Shown here piece by piece: positions 3,589 to 49,957 of a stretch of 64,000 bases of DNA (position 1 is its first letter; each line of letters starts with the position of its first letter). This stretch comes from Flavobacterium bernardetii (GTDB lineage Bacteria > Bacteroidota > Bacteroidia > Flavobacteriales > Flavobacteriaceae). The stretch is taken from contig NZ_JAANOQ010000002.1 in NCBI RefSeq assembly GCF_011305415.1, forward strand, positions 243,186-307,185. Reading direction: 5' to 3'. A program made the translations under genes and the position numbers. Under the pieces are notes generated by a model. It was not told the origin of the DNA and searched no databases. It worked only from the letters and a program-made list of their open reading frames with translations.

Positions 3589-5568
3589 TTAAAACCGAAC
3601 CATAACTCGACCTAAGTTCTTTGCAATAACTGTTGTTAAAGATAAATAGTCTTTTATAGTAGTTAAAATTTCGGTGTTATCAACTGTTACATCAGCGGTT
3701 ATGTTGTTTTTATTCTCTTCAATGACTTTGTTTAATAAATACCATCGGTAAGATAAAATGGTTTCAGTTACACTTTGTGCTAAATTGATGTTTTTTTTCT
3801 CTACTACGATTTTTCTATTTTCCCATTTGTGCAAAATATCGCGTTCTTCTAACATTAAAATAGAAGTGATTTTGTTTGCAATTTCAGGTGAAGTTTGAGA
3901 AATATATTTATCAATTTCAAATTCCAAATTCTGATTGTAGTAGTTTATGATATCTGTATAAATCGTTTTGAAAATCGGATTTGATAATTCAATTTCATCT
4001 TCTTGAAGTGCCAAATATATTTTTTCGTAAACTTTATAAGCGTTAGTTTCTTTAACATCTACTAAATTCCCGGTTTCATCTTCTGCTAAGAAAGTCTCAG
4101 TAAAATCTTCTGTTTCCGAACCGTTTACTAATAAGATTTCAATTATTTTTTGTTCTAATTCATATAAAATGTCAATTTTTGCAGGTTGCAAATTCTCATT
4201 GTTTTTATGAACTTCAAATGCTTTTTTCTCTTCTGTGAATTTTTTATTCGCATCAGAAACATCCTTTTTTTCTATTTGTGCTAGAGTACTACGAATTACT
4301 TCTTCCGTAATATCCATGATACGTGAACATTCCTTAATGTAAATTTCACGTTTAATGAAATCTGAAATTTTAGAAATACTGTTCACCATATCTCTAATTA
4401 ATTCGGCTTTTTTTATCGGATCGTTGTTGGCTTCTTTGACTAATAAATCGGCTTTAAACTGAATAAAATCTTTGGAATTTTCGTCTAAATATTGTTTTAA
4501 AACTTCGTACGAATTGTTCTTAGCAAAACTATCTGGATCTTCTCCATCAGGAAAACTACAAACTTTTACGTTCATTCCTGCTTCCAGAATTAAATCGATA
4601 CCTCTGATAGAAGCGCGTAAACCCGCTGCATCACCATCAAAAAGAACTGTAATATTGTTGGTTAAACGATGCACTAAACGAATTTGGTCTGGCGTTAAAG
4701 CCGTTCCAGAAGAAGCCACCACGTTTTCAATGCCACTTTGATTGAACTGAATCACATCGGTGTAACCTTCTACCAAATAACAATTGTCATGTTTGGCAAT
4801 AGATTGCTTTGCCTGAAAAATTCCGTATAAAACTTTACTTTTATGATAGATTTCGCTTTCTGGCGAGTTTAGATATTTGGCTGCTTTTTTATCGTTGGTT
4901 AAAATTCTTCCACCAAAACCTAAAACTCTACCGCTCATACTTTGAATAGGAAACATCACACGACCTTTAAATCGGTCAAATGTTTTACCGTCTTCTTGTT
5001 TTACAATAGTTAATCCGGTTTTTTTTAGATATTCTAATTTGTAGGCTTTTCCTAAGGCTTCTTTCGTAAAAGCATCCCAAGAATCTGGAGAATATCCTAA
5101 TTGAAATTTTTCAATCGTATCTTTTGTAAAACCACGTTCTTTAAAATACGATAAACCAATAGCTTGACCTTCATCTGTATTCAGCATCGTTTTATGAAAA
5201 TAATCTCGGGCAAATTCCGAAACCAAATACATGCTTTCTTTTTCGTTGGCTTGTTCTAAATCTTCATTGGTCACGATGGTTTCTTCCACTTCAATTCCGT
5301 ATTTGTTGGCCAAATATTTTATGGCTTCCGGATACGTAAAATGTTCGTGTTCCATTAAGAAAGTAACAGAATTTCCACCTTTTCCCGAGCTGAAATCTTT
5401 CCAAATTTGCTTCACTGGCGAAACCATAAACGACGGCGATTTTTCGTTTACAAACGGCGAAAGTCCTTTCATGTTACTTCCGGAACGTTTGAGTTGTACG
5501 AAATCGCCAATGACTTCCTCTACACGAGCTTGGTCAAATACTTTTTCTATGGTTTCTTTAGATATCAA
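3589..5568 (-). CDS. dnaG: DNA primase DnaG with degenerate zinc motif
   Basis: Synthesises RNA primers at the replication fork. Length 659 aa is normal. The N-terminal zinc-binding domain is recognisable (GLSPFVNEKSPSFMVSP then WKDFSSGKGG, residues 36-64), but all four zinc ligands of the usual C-x2-H...C-x2-C set are replaced: Ser37, Val40, Asp58, Ser61. The catalytic core follows: LVEGYTDVIQF with the toprim Glu, and LFDGDAAG plus PDGEDPDSF with the metal-binding Asp residues. The C-terminal helicase-interacting region is long and divergent. The same zinc-ligand loss is, from memory, common in Flavobacteriaceae DnaG, so this is probably clade-wide and not a defect. Convergent with the response regulator. 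Confidence 0.95.
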   Translation of the reverse strand: MISKETIEKVFDQARVEEVIGDFVQLKRSGSNMKGLSPFVNEKSPSFMVSPVKQIWKDFSSGKGGNSVTFLMEHEHFTYPEAIKYLANKYGIEVEETIVTNEDLEQANEKESMYLVSEFARDYFHKTMLNTDEGQAIGLSYFKERGFTKDTIEKFQLGYSPDSWDAFTKEALGKAYKLEYLKKTGLTIVKQEDGKTFDRFKGRVMFPIQSMSGRVLGFGGRILTNDKKAAKYLNSPESEIYHKSKVLYGIFQAKQSIAKHDNCYLVEGYTDVIQFNQSGIENVVASSGTALTPDQIRLVHRLTNNITVLFDGDAAGLRASIRGIDLILEAGMNVKVCSFPDGEDPDSFAKNNSYEVLKQYLDENSKDFIQFKADLLVKEANNDPIKKAELIRDMVNSISKISDFIKREIYIKECSRIMDITEEVIRSTLAQIEKKDVSDANKKFTEEKKAFEVHKNNENLQPAKIDILYELEQKIIEILLVNGSETEDFTETFLAEDETGNLVDVKETNAYKVYEKIYLALQEDEIELSNPIFKTIYTDIINYYNQNLEFEIDKYISQTSPEIANKITSILMLEERDILHKWENRKIVVEKKNINLAQSVTETILSYRWYLLNKVIEENKNNITADVTVDNTEILTTIKDYLSLTTVIAKNLGRVMVRF

Positions 5569-9308: not shown

Positions 9309-10349
9309 CTAACTCTTATTTGCCAATTGTCCACAAGCGGCATCAATATCTTTTCCACGGCTTTTTCGAACTTTAACTACAATATTATTTCTTTCTAAAG
9401 CAGTAATGTAATCTTTTGTAGCTTGTTCATCGGCTTGTTGAAAATCACCATCGTCAATGGCGTTGTATTCAATTAAGTTGACTTTACAAGGCACATGTTT
9501 ACAAAATTTAACCAATGCATCAATTGAAGCTTTATCGTCATTGATGTTTTTCCAAACTACGTATTCATAAGTGATTTTGCTTTTTGTTTTGGCGTACCAA
9601 TATTCTAAAGCTTCACGTAATTCTGGTAATGGAAAACTCTTGGTAAATGGCATAATTTCATTTCGAATCGCTTCAATCGCTGAGTGTAAAGAAACCGCTA
9701 AATTGAATTTCACCTCATCATCCGCCATTTTTTTAATCATTTTTGAAACACCAGAAGTTGAAACGGTAATACGTTTTGGTGACATGCCTAATCCTTCGTT
9801 TGACGTAATCATGTCAATTGCTTTCATTACGTTTGGGTAATTCATTAAAGGTTCGCCCATTCCCATGAAAACTATGTTAGAAAGTGGTCTGTCATAATAC
9901 AGTTTACTTTCATTATCAATCGCAACAACTTGGTCATAAATTTCACCAGGTGTCAAATTTCGCATACGTTTCAAACGAGCAGTTGCGCAAAAATTACAAT
10001 CTAAACTACAACCAACTTGACTAGAAACACAAGCTGTTGTTCTGGTTTTTGTTGGAATCAGCACACTTTCTACAATTAAATCATCGTGTAAACGAACGGC
10101 ATTTTTAACTGTTCCGTCTTCACTACGTTGCATGGTGTCGACTTTTACATGATTAATGACGAAGTTCGCTTCTAACATGGTACGAGTTTCCTTTGAAACG
10201 TTAGTCATATTTTCAAATGAATGTGCACTTTTGCTCCATAACCATTCGTAAATTTGATTCCCACGAAAGGCTTTGTCTCCGTTAGTTACGAAAAATTCTC
10301 TTAATTGCTCTTTTGATAAAGCTCTGATGTCTTTTTTGTCTGCTTGCAT
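9309..10349 (-). CDS. rlmN: 23S rRNA/tRNA adenine-C2 methyltransferase RlmN
   Basis: A radical-SAM enzyme that methylates A2503 of 23S rRNA and A37 of some tRNAs. The iron-sulfur motif CSLDCNFC has ligands at Cys114, 118 and 121, and the catalytic Cys is in the C-terminal DAACGQL. Length 346 aa is normal. The segment VFMGMGEPLMNY is a family hallmark. The first gene of a likely rlmN-polyprenyl synthase transcript; divergent from the O-methyltransferase. Confidence 0.96.
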   Translation of the reverse strand: MQADKKDIRALSKEQLREFFVTNGDKAFRGNQIYEWLWSKSAHSFENMTNVSKETRTMLEANFVINHVKVDTMQRSEDGTVKNAVRLHDDLIVESVLIPTKTRTTACVSSQVGCSLDCNFCATARLKRMRNLTPGEIYDQVVAIDNESKLYYDRPLSNIVFMGMGEPLMNYPNVMKAIDMITSNEGLGMSPKRITVSTSGVSKMIKKMADDEVKFNLAVSLHSAIEAIRNEIMPFTKSFPLPELREALEYWYAKTKSKITYEYVVWKNINDDKASIDALVKFCKHVPCKVNLIEYNAIDDGDFQQADEQATKDYITALERNNIVVKVRKSRGKDIDAACGQLANKS

Positions 10350-45725: not shown

Positions 45726-45799
45726 GGCTTCGTAGTTCAACTGGATAGAATGACGGATTTCGGCTCCGTTGGTTGCAGGTTCGAACCCTGCCGAGGTCA
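45726..45799 (+). tRNA. tRNA-Arg (anticodon TCG)
   Basis: 74-nt cloverleaf: acceptor GGCTTCG/CGAGGTC with discriminator A, anticodon stem ACGGA/TCCGT around loop TTTCGGC, T-loop GGTTCGAACC. CCA is not encoded. It marks the junction between core genes and the minus-strand accessory block, a typical integration target. Confidence 0.95.
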
Positions 45800-45941
45800 C
45801 TTTCAAAGCATATTTATAAGGCTTAACGTTATTTTTAGTCAACATTTAGTCAACCGATATATAAAAATATAGTTTTCTACATTAAAAATGTTTTAACTAA
45901 AATGATGTTTAATATTAGATTGCTGAATAAATTAAGCAAAA

Positions 45942-46169: not shown

Positions 46170-47201
46170 TTAAATTACTTTTCTTATTTCGTTCCAGTTG
46201 CAATCTACTAAACCAAACGTTTCAATTAGATTCCAAATTTCGGGTGTGTGTGTTTCAAATTCGTTAATAATATTTTCGGTGTCGGTATAAATAATTTCAT
46301 GTTTTTTATTTTTTTCAGCTTCTTTTTTTTCAATAAGTAATACATCTGCAAAATCTGTTCCTGCTTCAAAATTCGTATTTTCGAGCCAATCATTAACAAT
46401 TATATCAAAACCTAAGATATTGAGTTCGGTGGCTTTTTTAAACCAATCTGCATACTCGCTTTTATCAGGAAATGCAATAATTTTATATTGCTTAATTGGT
46501 TTCAGATTTTCATATTTAAAACCTTGTTTACTTCCTGTGGCTAACCAAATATATTGAGGTTTAAATATACTCATCATAATTGCTGTTTTTTCTCCCTCAA
46601 CAAGTGCAATGGTTTTGGCATTACTTTCATTTATTAGGTGCAAACCGAATAAGCATTGATTAAGATTATAATCATTGATTGTTTTGGTTCGTTTTAAAAT
46701 ACTATGTACCCAATCTATTAAACTTTTGCCGTCTTCGTTTTTGTGTCGTTTGCCAGTTTTTGAAACATATTGTAAAATTTTACCAGCGTGAACCTTTTGC
46801 AAATTATCAATTTGCCAAAATATTGTAGCACCATTCCAACGCTTTGATGTTCCTATCAAATATTTTAGTATTGCTTCTTTTACTTCAGTTTCTGTAAAAA
46901 TGGTTTTTAAGAACTGGATAAAATTATTTTCTTTGTAATTCCTACCACTTTGACTTACTAAATCGAAATTATGAAAACTTGGTTTTGGTTTCGGAATATT
47001 AACCACTTCAAAAGGATTATTAAACTCGCCTGTTGGTGTGTTATGAAAACCACAATTTGTTTCACGGTCGCAACGTCCAAAATCTTCATTCAAATAGTTT
47101 CCTGTTTCCGTTTCTTTATATTTTACAAGGGTTCGTTTGTTGCATTTTGGACAAACAAACTTTTTACTGCTTTTATCTAAATTGTATTTGTATTGTTTCA
47201 T
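46170..47201 (-). CDS. Toprim-type primase of a mobile element (DUF6371-like)
   Basis: 343 residues from ATG 47201. An N-terminal zinc ribbon is visible (CPKCNKRT ... GRCDRETNCGF, residues about 17-50), and a toprim-like half follows with IALVEGEKTAIM (acidic Glu) and IIAFPDKSEY. Proteins of this layout replicate plasmids and mobilizable elements in Bacteroidota, often with a RepA-like ATPase, as here. I prefer 47201 over ATG 47243: the extra 14 residues would be encoded by the palindromic array 47219-47272. Downstream are no further element genes before tRNA-Arg. Confidence 0.75.
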   Translation of the reverse strand: MKQYKYNLDKSSKKFVCPKCNKRTLVKYKETETGNYLNEDFGRCDRETNCGFHNTPTGEFNNPFEVVNIPKPKPSFHNFDLVSQSGRNYKENNFIQFLKTIFTETEVKEAILKYLIGTSKRWNGATIFWQIDNLQKVHAGKILQYVSKTGKRHKNEDGKSLIDWVHSILKRTKTINDYNLNQCLFGLHLINESNAKTIALVEGEKTAIMMSIFKPQYIWLATGSKQGFKYENLKPIKQYKIIAFPDKSEYADWFKKATELNILGFDIIVNDWLENTNFEAGTDFADVLLIEKKEAEKNKKHEIIYTDTENIINEFETHTPEIWNLIETFGLVDCNWNEIRKVI

Positions 47202-47218: not shown

Positions 47219-47272
47219 TGTTCACGGTGTTCATACTGTTCACACTGTGAACACCGTGAACAGAATGAACAC
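47219..47272. repeat. Symmetric 9-bp iteron-like array (3 direct + 3 inverted)
   Basis: Three 9-bp units TGTTCANNN (47219, 47228, 47237) are followed by three inverted units NNTGAACAN (47246, 47255, 47264). The outer part forms a perfect 16-bp inverted repeat, CTGTTCACGGTGTTCA at 47218-47233 against 47248-47263. It fills the gap between the helicase stop (47274) and the primase ATG (47201). Confidence 0.8.
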
Positions 47273-47273
47273 T

Positions 47274-48305
47274 TTACAACTTTAAATATTTATTTACAGT
47301 CCCAACTGACACACCCAATTGAGTAGCAATTTGCCTTTGGCTTTTTCCTTGTATGTTTAATTCCTTTACTTTTTCAATGTTTGTTTCACGGTCTTTATCA
47401 GTATATTGTTTTAGGTGTTCACGTTCATTACCATAACCAATAAACTCAAATTGTAAAAAATTATATTCTTTATTTATATGACAAATACAAACATTATCTG
47501 TATCAAATACTTGCTCACAATTACGTTGTTTAATTTGTTTGATATATCTTATTTGCTTGTCTTGGTTACTTTCTCCAATAGCAAAGGAACTATCACAAAA
47601 ATTCATAAGCATTTTGCTTCCTGACAAATCATTTCTTGTAATTGGCTTTGATAAATCTCTTTTTGGCGTGTGTGCTAAAATCAAAATTGAAAGTGAGTAC
47701 TTGCTTTTTAATTCTTTAAGTTTTTTCATTAATGGTAAAGCTTCTTTTGCTTTTTCATTATCGGTTTTTAAGTAGGTGAGATTGTCAATAATCAAAACCT
47801 TTGAATTAGATTTTAAAAGACTTTGCTCGATTGACAAGATAAGAAAGTCATCAAAATTTTGATTAATTGGTAAATCAGCATCGGTATTGATTTCTATTCT
47901 TAAAAAATTATTGTCAAAGTTGTAATTTTCGGTATAATCTTTTGAATATCTATTTTGAAATTGCTTATCCGACAATTCAAAATCAAAGTAAAGAACAGAC
48001 TGTTTTTGAGTTTCAATTTTGAACCCAATTATATGTTCTGACTTACTTATGCTGTTGCCAATTTGAACTGCTAAAATTGATTTCCCTAAATTGGTATCAG
48101 CAAACAAAATACATATTTCACCCTCATACCATAGTTGACTAAAAAGCATCTTCGGTATTGGTCGGTTCTTTGCTTCCTCCATCCACTCATTAGCTGTTTT
48201 TATCAAAAATAAACCATTTTCTGTTGTCTTAACTTCGCATTGCATTGCTTTGTCAATTACATTGCTAAAATCGGTTAAACCAATTGCCTGTTTATCTTTA
48301 TCCAT
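47274..48305 (-). CDS. RepA-like AAA ATPase/helicase with C-terminal HTH
   Basis: 343 residues. Walker A is in FADTNLGKSILAVQ (about 72-80), Walker B in KVLIIDNLTYL, and LILAHTPKRD supplies a sensor-type motif; this is the RepA/KaiC-like hexameric ATPase family of plasmids and phages. The last 35 residues form an HTH (GKSQRQIATQLGVSVGTVNK), which could read the adjacent 9-bp array. It probably loads at or opens an origin for the primase encoded next. Start is 4 bp behind the HTH gene. Confidence 0.8.
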   Translation of the reverse strand: MDKDKQAIGLTDFSNVIDKAMQCEVKTTENGLFLIKTANEWMEEAKNRPIPKMLFSQLWYEGEICILFADTNLGKSILAVQIGNSISKSEHIIGFKIETQKQSVLYFDFELSDKQFQNRYSKDYTENYNFDNNFLRIEINTDADLPINQNFDDFLILSIEQSLLKSNSKVLIIDNLTYLKTDNEKAKEALPLMKKLKELKSKYSLSILILAHTPKRDLSKPITRNDLSGSKMLMNFCDSSFAIGESNQDKQIRYIKQIKQRNCEQVFDTDNVCICHINKEYNFLQFEFIGYGNEREHLKQYTDKDRETNIEKVKELNIQGKSQRQIATQLGVSVGTVNKYLKL

Positions 48306-48309
48306 ATTG

Positions 48310-48576
48310 CTATGAATTAATTGACTTAACCGCTTCTAAAACTTGTTTTCTGCTATAATACACCCTGTTTCCTATTCCACTACTTAATAGTTTACCACTA
48401 CGAGTATGTTTCCATAAAGTCGTGAAATTTATACTCAAAAGAGTACAAACTTCTTTTCGGGTCATTAAATCGTTTTCGGGTTGTTGTGATTCTTTTGTTG
48501 CTTGAGGTTGCAACAATGGTTTAAGTGCTTCGGCTAATTGTTCAATTGTGATGCCGTTTAATAAAATTTGATTCAT
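48310..48576 (-). CDS. Excisionase-like helix-turn-helix protein
   Basis: 88 residues; the C-terminal half (LMTRKEVCTLLSINFTTLWK, then GIGNRVYYSRKQVLEAV) is the MerR/excisionase-type HTH with wing found in small DNA-binding proteins of Bacteroidota mobile elements. The N-terminal part is a Gln-rich helix. Likely roles are control of the replication operon or assistance of excision; neither is proven and no integrase is visible. An 8-bp dyad lies 36-63 bp upstream of its start. Confidence 0.75.
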   Translation of the reverse strand: MNQILLNGITIEQLAEALKPLLQPQATKESQQPENDLMTRKEVCTLLSINFTTLWKHTRSGKLLSSGIGNRVYYSRKQVLEAVKSINS

Positions 48577-49228: not shown

Positions 49229-49957
49229 TTATTTTCTAATCATTTTTCTCTTTGGCAATTTTATACTTTTCATTTCATTTATAGGATTTTTTACAATTTT
49301 CTCTTCAAAAAAACTAAATAATTTTTCTTGATGTAATTTATAAATTGTTAATGGAGTTACATTTTTATAAATATAATCATATAATTTTTTTGTATCATTT
49401 ACAGAATACTTTATATAAAAATTTTCTGTCTTAGTATGTTTGTTAGTATTAATATTTCTTTTTGTTAAACCTATTTTATTCAATTGTTTTTCTAAATCTA
49501 AAATAAATTCAAAAGAGCATGATGAAAAAGCAGAAGCAATAGCATTTTTACTTAAAGCTATTGAACCACTTCCTGCCCATAATCCTCTTATGAAATGAGG
49601 ATATAATTCATCAGGTAAATATGGGAATTTAATATTTGAATTTTTTTTCTCACACATTCCAAATTCAATTAATTCATCAATTATGTCTTCATTTGAAATA
49701 TGCAAATAATAAAAGCCACCTTGCTTAATGCCGTTATACTCTCTTTCTTTGACATAGTGAATTTCTAAATTTGATTTTAATATATCTCTACAATTTTCTA
49801 TAAGATACTTATTCTTATTAATTATCCTGATAAATTGTTTCCCTGTATTAGAATATTCATATAATGAACCATCAGTAAATATCATTCCTAATAAGAAAGC
49901 TGTATCACAATCAAAATCATCAAAAACATCGAAATCATAATAAATAAATTCTTTCAT
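49229..49957 (-). CDS. Free-standing LAGLIDADG-type protein with one altered acidic site
   Basis: 242 residues with two LAGLIDADG-like motifs: AFLLGMIFTDGSLY (about 19-32) and HFIRGLWAGSGSIAL (about 125-139). In motif 1 the catalytic Asp of TDG is present; in motif 2 the equivalent position is Ser (AGSGS). Single-chain LAGLIDADG nucleases need both acids, so this copy may nick only or serve as a DNA-binding protein. It does not lie in an intron or intein. Very AT-rich. Confidence 0.65.
   Translation of the reverse strand: MKEFIYYDFDVFDDFDCDTAFLLGMIFTDGSLYEYSNTGKQFIRIINKNKYLIENCRDILKSNLEIHYVKEREYNGIKQGGFYYLHISNEDIIDELIEFGMCEKKNSNIKFPYLPDELYPHFIRGLWAGSGSIALSKNAIASAFSSCSFEFILDLEKQLNKIGLTKRNINTNKHTKTENFYIKYSVNDTKKLYDYIYKNVTPLTIYKLHQEKLFSFFEEKIVKNPINEMKSIKLPKRKMIRK

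Follow-up and report, generated by a model that had tools for sequence, protein, structure and literature searches.

Between the gene of a helicase-like ATPase and that of a putative primase, Flavobacterium bernardetii carries a short palindromic array of repeats. What is this array for, and which protein reads it? The original prediction, made on the 64,000 nucleotides analysed here (the window), placed three possibilities side by side: an origin of replication, an operator or an RNA hairpin controlling translation of the primase. The helix-turn-helix (HTH) of the ATPase itself was suspected to be involved.

Layout of the array

The array and the genes next to it are located as follows (window coordinates):

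46170..47201, minus strand: putative primase, Zn_ribbon_16 + DUF6371 (Pfam; activity suggested by the annotation of relatives)
47219..47272, no strand: putative origin or ATPase-HTH binding site, a palindromic 3+3 array of units at 9-bp pitch (TGTTCA three times, then TGAACA three times)
47274..48305, minus strand: RecA-type (AAA_25) helicase-like ATPase, 343 aa, with a C-terminal helix-turn-helix (Pfam AAA_25, E 4.2e-16)
47277..47399, minus strand: HTH of the ATPase, residues 303-343 (structure model, and covariation with the unit word)
48310..48576, minus strand: HTH_17 excisionase-like protein (Pfam), upstream of the ATPase

The units at 47219-47272 read TGTTCACGG TGTTCATAC TGTTCACAC TGTGAACAC CGTGAACAG AATGAACAC, three units against three inverted units. 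The start coordinates (TGTTCA at 47219, 47228 and 47237; TGAACA at 47248, 47257 and 47266) bear out the predicted arrangement of three direct TGTTCA-type units facing three inverted ones. The 'strict 9-bp period' holds within either arm but not across the centre, where the innermost two hexamers start 11 bp apart, and is therefore to be limited to the arms. Similarly, the array does sit in the gap between ATPase and primase, but that it 'exactly fills' this gap is slightly overstated, since it covers 54 of the 72 bp that separate the stop codon of the ATPase (47274-47276) from the ATG of the primase (47199-47201), with 17 nt left ahead of the ATG. For the primase a GTG at 47243 is also listed as start, which would fall within the array; the ATG at 47201 is supported by the start of the Zn-ribbon match and by the starts of relatives.

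Several short direct repeats at a regular pitch (three units per arm, 9 bp) are what iteron-type origins have. Chance repeats are ruled out as an explanation by pattern counts in window and genome and by the scores of shuffles and control stretches. The mismatch-free pair TGTTCANNNTGTTCA occurs four times in the 64-kb window, every time inside the array, and the mismatch-free three-unit pattern is found nowhere in the 3.39-Mb genome but in the array's own two arms (allowing as many as 3 mismatches gives 27 occurrences, against 19 for the reversed control pattern). Our de novo detector gives the window array a score of 36, whereas 10 dinucleotide shuffles and two control stretches from the locus all score 0.

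The ATPase and the element that encodes it

That the ATPase carries its own HTH is confirmed by a C-terminal HTH both in the Pfam matches and in the structure model. Below the cut-off, Pfam matches the protein to DnaB_C, Sigma70_r4_2 and HTH_24; neither DUF927 nor a D5 family is found at E 0.001, so by Pfam it does not belong to the SaPI Rep/Cch family. The model, built from a 57-row alignment (pLDDT 85), comprises a RecA-like core and a three-helix HTH with helices at residues 303-318, 323-330 and 334-342, the last being the recognition helix (VGTVNKYLK). In fold alignment the core reaches a Z of about 20 with T7 gp4 helicase, KaiC, RadA, Twinkle and RSF1010 RepA. The modelled fold is thus that of the RecA-type ring ATPases, which include hexameric helicases but equally KaiC and RadA, and the helicase role is a prediction. 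A profile of the ATPase has one sequence match in the PDB, 8vd6, which covers the HTH region only; for the window primase the PDB yields no sequence relatives at E 0.1.

The array lies in an integrated element of about 20.7 kb, with the ATPase-primase pair at one end. As is typical of integrated mobile elements, it has an integrase, and direct repeats flank it beside a tRNA gene:

45726..45800, plus strand: tRNA-Arg beside the integration site, 33 bp from the left repeat
45834..45854, plus strand: left 21-bp direct repeat of the element (right copy at 66566-66586, beyond the window)
65231-66529, minus strand: integrase ORF, 432 aa, at the far end of the element next to the right repeat

As cargo the element encodes a type IIG-like restriction enzyme, a DUF6161/AbiZ-like protein and efflux genes (E1-E2 ATPase, HlyD/CusB-like, AcrB-like). 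No relaxase is found among the window proteins scanned with Pfam. A LAGLIDADG homing-endonuclease-like ORF at 49229-49957 is probably a small passenger of the element.

The array across relatives of the ATPase

Loci with relatives of the ATPase were gathered from genome contigs (of the 275 relatives found in the profile scan the best 80 were used), plasmids, phage-labelled records, IMG/VR and genomes, which together gave 93 non-redundant loci. Removed before counting were four remote loci (L015, L016, L116, L117), one at a contig end (L094) and five duplicates (L031, L044, L049, L083, L084). A single-protein scan of viral contigs yielded no relatives. Genome searches, with the own genome included each time, found relatives in 7 of 150, at least 14 of 395 and at least 22 of 395 genomes; at a stricter E-value the outcome was 1/22, 1/395 and 1/7, the sole match being the centre genome itself. 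In the searches of 395 genomes no more than five candidates were scored per genome.

A palindromic array is present within -200 to +400 nt of the ATPase stop in 88 of the 93 loci. The search for the array beside other ATPase-primase pairs, which had been proposed as a check, is thereby answered positively for these ATPase relatives, and the arrangement, which had seemed unfamiliar for elements of Bacteroidota, turns out to be common there. An earlier run of the detector covered 91 loci, among them duplicates and two remote ones, and found the array in 82; in control stretches of that run it was positive in 1/91 inside the ATPase gene and in 0/89 at 500-860 nt past the stop. Shuffles scored above zero in 12/91 loci (scores 21-26). 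Nine 2+2 arrays of the earlier run score 22-24, within the range of the best shuffles, and a lone short array is therefore weak evidence.

The commonest form is 3+3 (45/88), and six units in total are seen in 46/88 loci, seven in 22/88 and sixteen in 2/88. Steps between units are 9 bp in 321 of 396 cases, and about 5-7 bp of each unit are conserved, the remainder being free. The array starts at most 30 nt from the ATPase stop in 79/88 loci and begins ahead of the end of the stop codon in 40/88. By unit word the 88 loci fall into the classes GTAAC (35), GTTCA (29), CGTAC (14), CGTAA (5), GTCC (4) and CGCAC (1). These class names are coarse: GTAAC includes more than one HTH type, and the HTH of L105 (GTCC) differs from those of L017, L018 and L025. 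Eleven of the 88 arrays have no match to the primase, meaning no tblastn match to the window primase alone; in seven of these at least 2.9 kb of sequence lies downstream.

Several loci show variants of this layout. Two arrays have expanded to 16 units, 9+7 in L102 (in a MAG labelled Acidobacteria) and 3+13 in L057. The CGTAA loci (L013, L014, L091, L100, L101) have a small extra ORF between ATPase and array, which still adjoins the primase. The GTCC arrays of L017, L018 and L025 lie within the 3' coding end of the ATPase, and for this reason are translated within a C-terminal tail.

The five loci without an array near the stop contain clusters of the word expected from their HTH, either in the gap or within about 3.5 kb. 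TGTTCA-type clusters that fit the own HTH occur in L065 (2.6 kb upstream and 3.4 kb downstream) and L066 (one long cluster), and two CGTAC arrays, again fitting the own HTH, about 2.0-2.2 kb upstream in L103; for these three loci the clusters come from a targeted count of five words with no chance control. The gap of L069 holds an irregular GTTCAC cluster and L090 has irregular ACGTAACA words. Related elements with the two genes but without the array, which would speak against the original prediction, are thus not seen among the 93 nearer relatives (88 with the array near the stop, five with word clusters). Judged on the ATPase alone, they do exist among several remote relatives (about 40-50% identity): L137, L140, L145, L146 and L157, at about 41-50% identity, have no array by detector or by eye.

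The unit word and the HTH

The recognition helix differs in kind between the classes: VNKY goes with GTTCA, [IV]RK[WY] with CGTAC, M[KQN]V and relatives with GTAAC, and TVR[NIY] with CGTAA. Scored on the same 88 loci on which the motifs were chosen post hoc, [VI]N[KNR]Y is present in 29/29 GTTCA loci and 0/59 others, the CGTAC-class motif (which allowed X for L093, with one stop in frame) in 14/14 and 0/74, the GTAAC-class motif in 33/35 (two fail) and 0/53, and the CGTAA-class motif in 5/5 and 0/83.

Trees give a measure that is independent of the motifs. Across the HTH tree, built from 42 columns, 6 class changes are counted (5 is the least possible), against 24 on the tree of the helicase core (26 on a first core tree) and 26-32 on five slices of the core of about HTH length. 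Similarly, when neighbours with a core identity of 0.8 or more are excluded, the nearest neighbour predicts the right class for 82.5 of 88 loci by HTH and for 43.5 by core; stricter cuts give 61.2 against 26.6 of 88 (at 0.7) and 45.0 against 15.8 (at 0.65). A rival reading is that the covariation merely reflects shared ancestry of whole loci. The core tree has strong support on only 16 of its 89 inner branches, which leaves some room for this explanation, and the independent concordant pairs on strongly supported branches (GTTCA 4/4, CGTAC 2/2) are too few for p<0.05. As the class changes 24 times on the core tree and 6 times on that of the HTH, and as pairs at 89-92% core identity differ in class, we nonetheless attach next to no credence to it.

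Two such pairs show where the change takes place. L063 and L107 are 89% identical in the core and 29% in the HTH, and their words differ; identity of the DNA is 73-88% at -964 to -184 (ATPase), 31-46% at -129 to +50, and 56-85% over most of the primase gene beyond the array. L058 and L077 (core 92%, HTH 47%) have a DNA identity of 30-58% over HTH and array and of 40-95% (mostly above 70%) after it. In both pairs the flanks on either side of HTH and array are 71-95% identical in most 60-nt windows. In these two closest pairs HTH and array are therefore swapped, or diversify, as one block of about 200 bp. A third pair, L089/L058, loses identity at this position too, without recovery after the array. 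Overall, the sequence comparisons strongly support a link between HTH and array, in which the unit word follows the HTH of the ATPase rather than its helicase core.

Predictions on new loci

Class predictions were fixed from the motifs before new loci were fetched. The 30 new genome loci (L132-L161) include three that are incomplete and four that are 100% copies of training proteins (all four fit the prediction, but are excluded from the count), so that 23 are left. These are mostly remote; the detector is positive in 11 of them and five bore a prediction. Three predictions were right (L151, L153, L155), none was contradicted, and two concern loci without a scored array of a class: L139 is degenerate and was scored as 'other' though GTACGA units are present, and L134 has 11 scattered GTAAC words in the gap and no regular array. 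The prediction was also right for L171, from IMG/VR (a source not named beforehand), whose ATPase is 60% identical to the nearest training protein. Of the remaining IMG/VR extras, L168 is a copy of L069 and was left uncounted, and L172, L173 and L176 bore no prediction. Further words, such as GGCAC and GGAAC, are seen in remote loci (partly by eye).

Hairpin, operator or origin

The hairpin reading holds that the transcribed palindrome controls translation of the primase or ends transcription. Folded as RNA, the window sequence reaches -31.7 kcal/mol (z -5.7), its spacers taking part in a 16-bp stem, and the GTTCA class, to which it belongs, has the highest spacer pairing of the four larger classes (43/96 positions). 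Nonetheless, any 3+3 palindrome folds. Over all 88 arrays, facing spacers are complementary at 81/254 positions and non-facing spacers at 127/380 (between-locus mean 0.344, sd 0.028); within the 29 arrays of the GTTCA class the counts are 43/96 and 76/192, and between-locus shuffles reach that level in 295 of 1000 cases. Arrays are also seen away from the primase and in the 11 of 88 loci where it has no match (seven with at least 2.9 kb downstream). Chance-level pairing of the spacers and arrays without a primase match are explained by recognition of the units as DNA, not by pairing of RNA. Spacer complementarity, over all 88 arrays as well as by class, rejects the hairpin as main reading, and we regard it as very improbable. 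From the trio of possibilities first put forward the hairpin is therefore dropped, its spacers pairing at chance level, whereas the suspected role of the ATPase HTH is upheld by the covariation.

A second possibility is that the HTH of the ATPase, bound to the array, controls transcription of the operon or its passage into the primase gene, with no role in an origin. The array does lie within a row of genes (in the window 17 nt ahead of the primase ATG), iteron proteins often autoregulate, and the covariation would suit any pair of HTH and site. Its position is less fitting for an operator: it follows the ATPase gene, beginning before the end of the stop codon in 40/88 loci, instead of preceding the gene row; it occurs in the 11/88 loci where the window primase finds no match; and the arrays of L065 and L103 are 2-3 kb or more away. 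We consider such a purely regulatory site unlikely, though the least unlikely of the alternatives. An origin is favoured over an operator because the reader is a helicase-type ATPase that adjoins a primase-like gene.

Based on the sequence evidence, we therefore read the array as a set of iterons. It is probably the cognate site to which the neighbouring ATPase binds through its C-terminal HTH, and most likely serves the mobile element as replication origin; it would work much as the iterons of SaPI Rep or of phage P4 alpha do. After excision, subunits of the ATPase would bind the inward-facing units through their HTHs, as the covariation suggests. Six units in a 3+3 arrangement would suit one six-membered ring or two opposed half-rings, considering the modal unit count and the hexameric relatives. 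The helicase might then open the DNA and load at the array, and the DUF6371 primase encoded by the next gene might prime synthesis.

Arrays away from the ATPase

An array-first search for minimal 2+2 patterns in IMG/VR matched 86 stretches (CGTAC 5, GTTCA 22, GTAAC 59). In nine of these an ATPase is present whose 3' end lies -3 to 21 nt from the array; eight were already known and only the L176 contig is new. The HTH motif of the class is found in seven of the nine and is absent from L176 and L252 (VRKQ, QQAKR). Inspected by eye, the other 77 stretches include many coding repeats and most seem unrelated, so that the minimal 2+2 pattern is not specific, but four are full 3+3 arrays in phage-like contigs, all without an ATPase match:

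L182:4234-4286: GTTCA class, 16 bp before TerL
L226:1184-1236: GTAAC class, directly after TerL
L230:3918-3970: GTAAC class, directly after TerL
L223:1337-1389: GTAAC class, in a phage-like contig with a ParB-like gene

The phages L226 and L230 are related, and their arrays are identical to each other. The array-bearing phage-like records may be fragments. Class-matching HTHs were sought in the two longer phage contigs, where the profile gives nothing below E 0.25 and the motif a lone match in a 648-aa ORF. Two array queries against named phages returned no other match covering 80% of the query, and the matches look like chance. A candidate array in MT835953 turned out to be a coding repeat.

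A link to packaging or to a helper phage is possible for these phage-contig arrays. It might be argued that the array in general serves packaging, excision or transfer, with terminase or recombination proteins recognising it as a mark on DNA to be transferred: four IMG/VR contigs carry it in full 3+3 form without the ATPase, and three of them have it directly after TerL (L226, L230) or 16 bp before it (L182). The two longer phage contigs offer no convincing class-matching HTH. Moreover, the unit word follows the HTH of the ATPase in 88 loci, most of which come from bacterial genome contigs, so that as a general account we judge this to be quite unlikely, somewhat more so than the operator.

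Gaps upstream of DUF6371 genes with other upstream gene families (L019-L024, which are outside the 93- and 88-locus counts) were inspected as well. With the detector widened to a pitch of 7-12 and no chance control, inverted repeats are found in three of five (L019, L021, L022; negative in L020 and L023), and the words in the gaps of L019-L023 are TTTCAGT, TGTCG and TTGCAG. The upstream gene is annotated as DUF3987 in L019 and L020 and carries no annotation in L021-L023. In L024 (phage csAssE-Sib) no array was seen by eye.

Comparison with known systems

According to PMC7581432, SaPI Rep uses its C-terminal domain to bind iterons that lie immediately downstream of its own gene, and SCCmec Cch2 recognises direct repeats located downstream of the operon that encodes it. 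The window system resembles SaPI Rep as described there, an initiator helicase whose C-terminal domain reads short repeats downstream, in an integrated element that also encodes a primase. The same features are found here: a helicase-type core by fold, a C-terminal DNA-binding domain in the form of the HTH, and repeats downstream, with the array at the stop in 79/88 loci. The domains differ, however, since DUF927 is given for Cch and SaPIBov1 Rep and Primase_Cterm (D5-like) for Cch2 and SaPI5 Rep (PMC7581432). Compared with SaPI Rep and Cch2, the window has a RecA-type AAA_25 ATPase with an HTH, a 3+3 palindrome at 9-bp pitch and a DUF6371 primase-like protein.

The alpha protein of P4 has a C-terminal winged helix. 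In PMC4234260 it is described as binding the origin repeats through the winged helix, after which it unwinds and primes. P4 alpha is a single polypeptide, unlike the separate ATPase and primase-like proteins of the window. Eight of 11 inspected P4 ori type 1 repeats (16 are annotated) are TGTTCACC, the same heptamer as in the window unit, which may be coincidence. The P4 repeats (X51522, L118) lie at 4314-4330 and 9310-9413 and two annotated crr repeats are at 9-bp pitch; in neither P4 ori nor crr does the detector find a regular palindromic array.

As in RSF1010, helicase and primase are separate proteins, and the core aligns with RSF1010 RepA (1olo, Z 19.7, rmsd 3.5, 219 aligned), a Z that is tied with those of KaiC, RadA and T7 gp4. 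In RSF1010 a separate protein, RepC, reads the iterons (PMC4234260), whereas the presumed iteron reader is here fused to the ATPase. For SGI1, plasmid-like replication has been reported (PMC7826253).

Among the closest known systems are also Bacteroides cfxA elements, which combine an ATPase-DUF6371 pair with a GTCCC-type array. The element in question is a circular record of 10 kb that carries cfxA together with an integrase, an excisionase and a mobilization gene, and that is probably Tn4555-like. Unlike in the window, its ATPase is distant (44% identity), the unit word is another one and the array is inside the 3' end of the ATPase gene. On the circular cfxA record L119 (CP103131), at 307-561, the annotation shows no more of the primase homologue than a short PG0870-related protein, and it is apparently broken.

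Overall, three features set the window system apart from the SaPI Rep, Cch2 and P4 precedents: the RecA-type core to which an HTH is fused, the 3+3 palindrome and the exchangeable cassette. A literature search of titles and abstract openings, with most subscription journals outside its reach, found no description of this array among those listed.

Implications

Because the code for the HTH and the array adjoin, a single recombination event can swap both. Such a swap would give an element a new origin specificity, with helicase and primase retained. As a serious but still tentative possibility, we therefore consider a widespread family of Bacteroidota mobile elements with a swappable 'origin specificity cassette' of about 200 bp, made up of the code for the recognition HTH of the helicase and, directly behind it, the six-unit array that this HTH would read. 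Exchange of the cassette would shift the compatibility group in one step. Some phages have the same arrays by their terminase genes, perhaps borrowing the replication machinery of the element or being exploited by it.

The loci also form a natural data set in which the recognition helix and its DNA word have changed jointly on many occasions, the remaining protein often being 50-90% identical, which is of use for the DNA-recognition code as well as for orthogonal replicons. In genome scans the array allows such modules to be found without a known Rep name. For these elements of Bacteroidota, the site (54 bp) and the reader protein are both defined, which makes the question of their replication testable.
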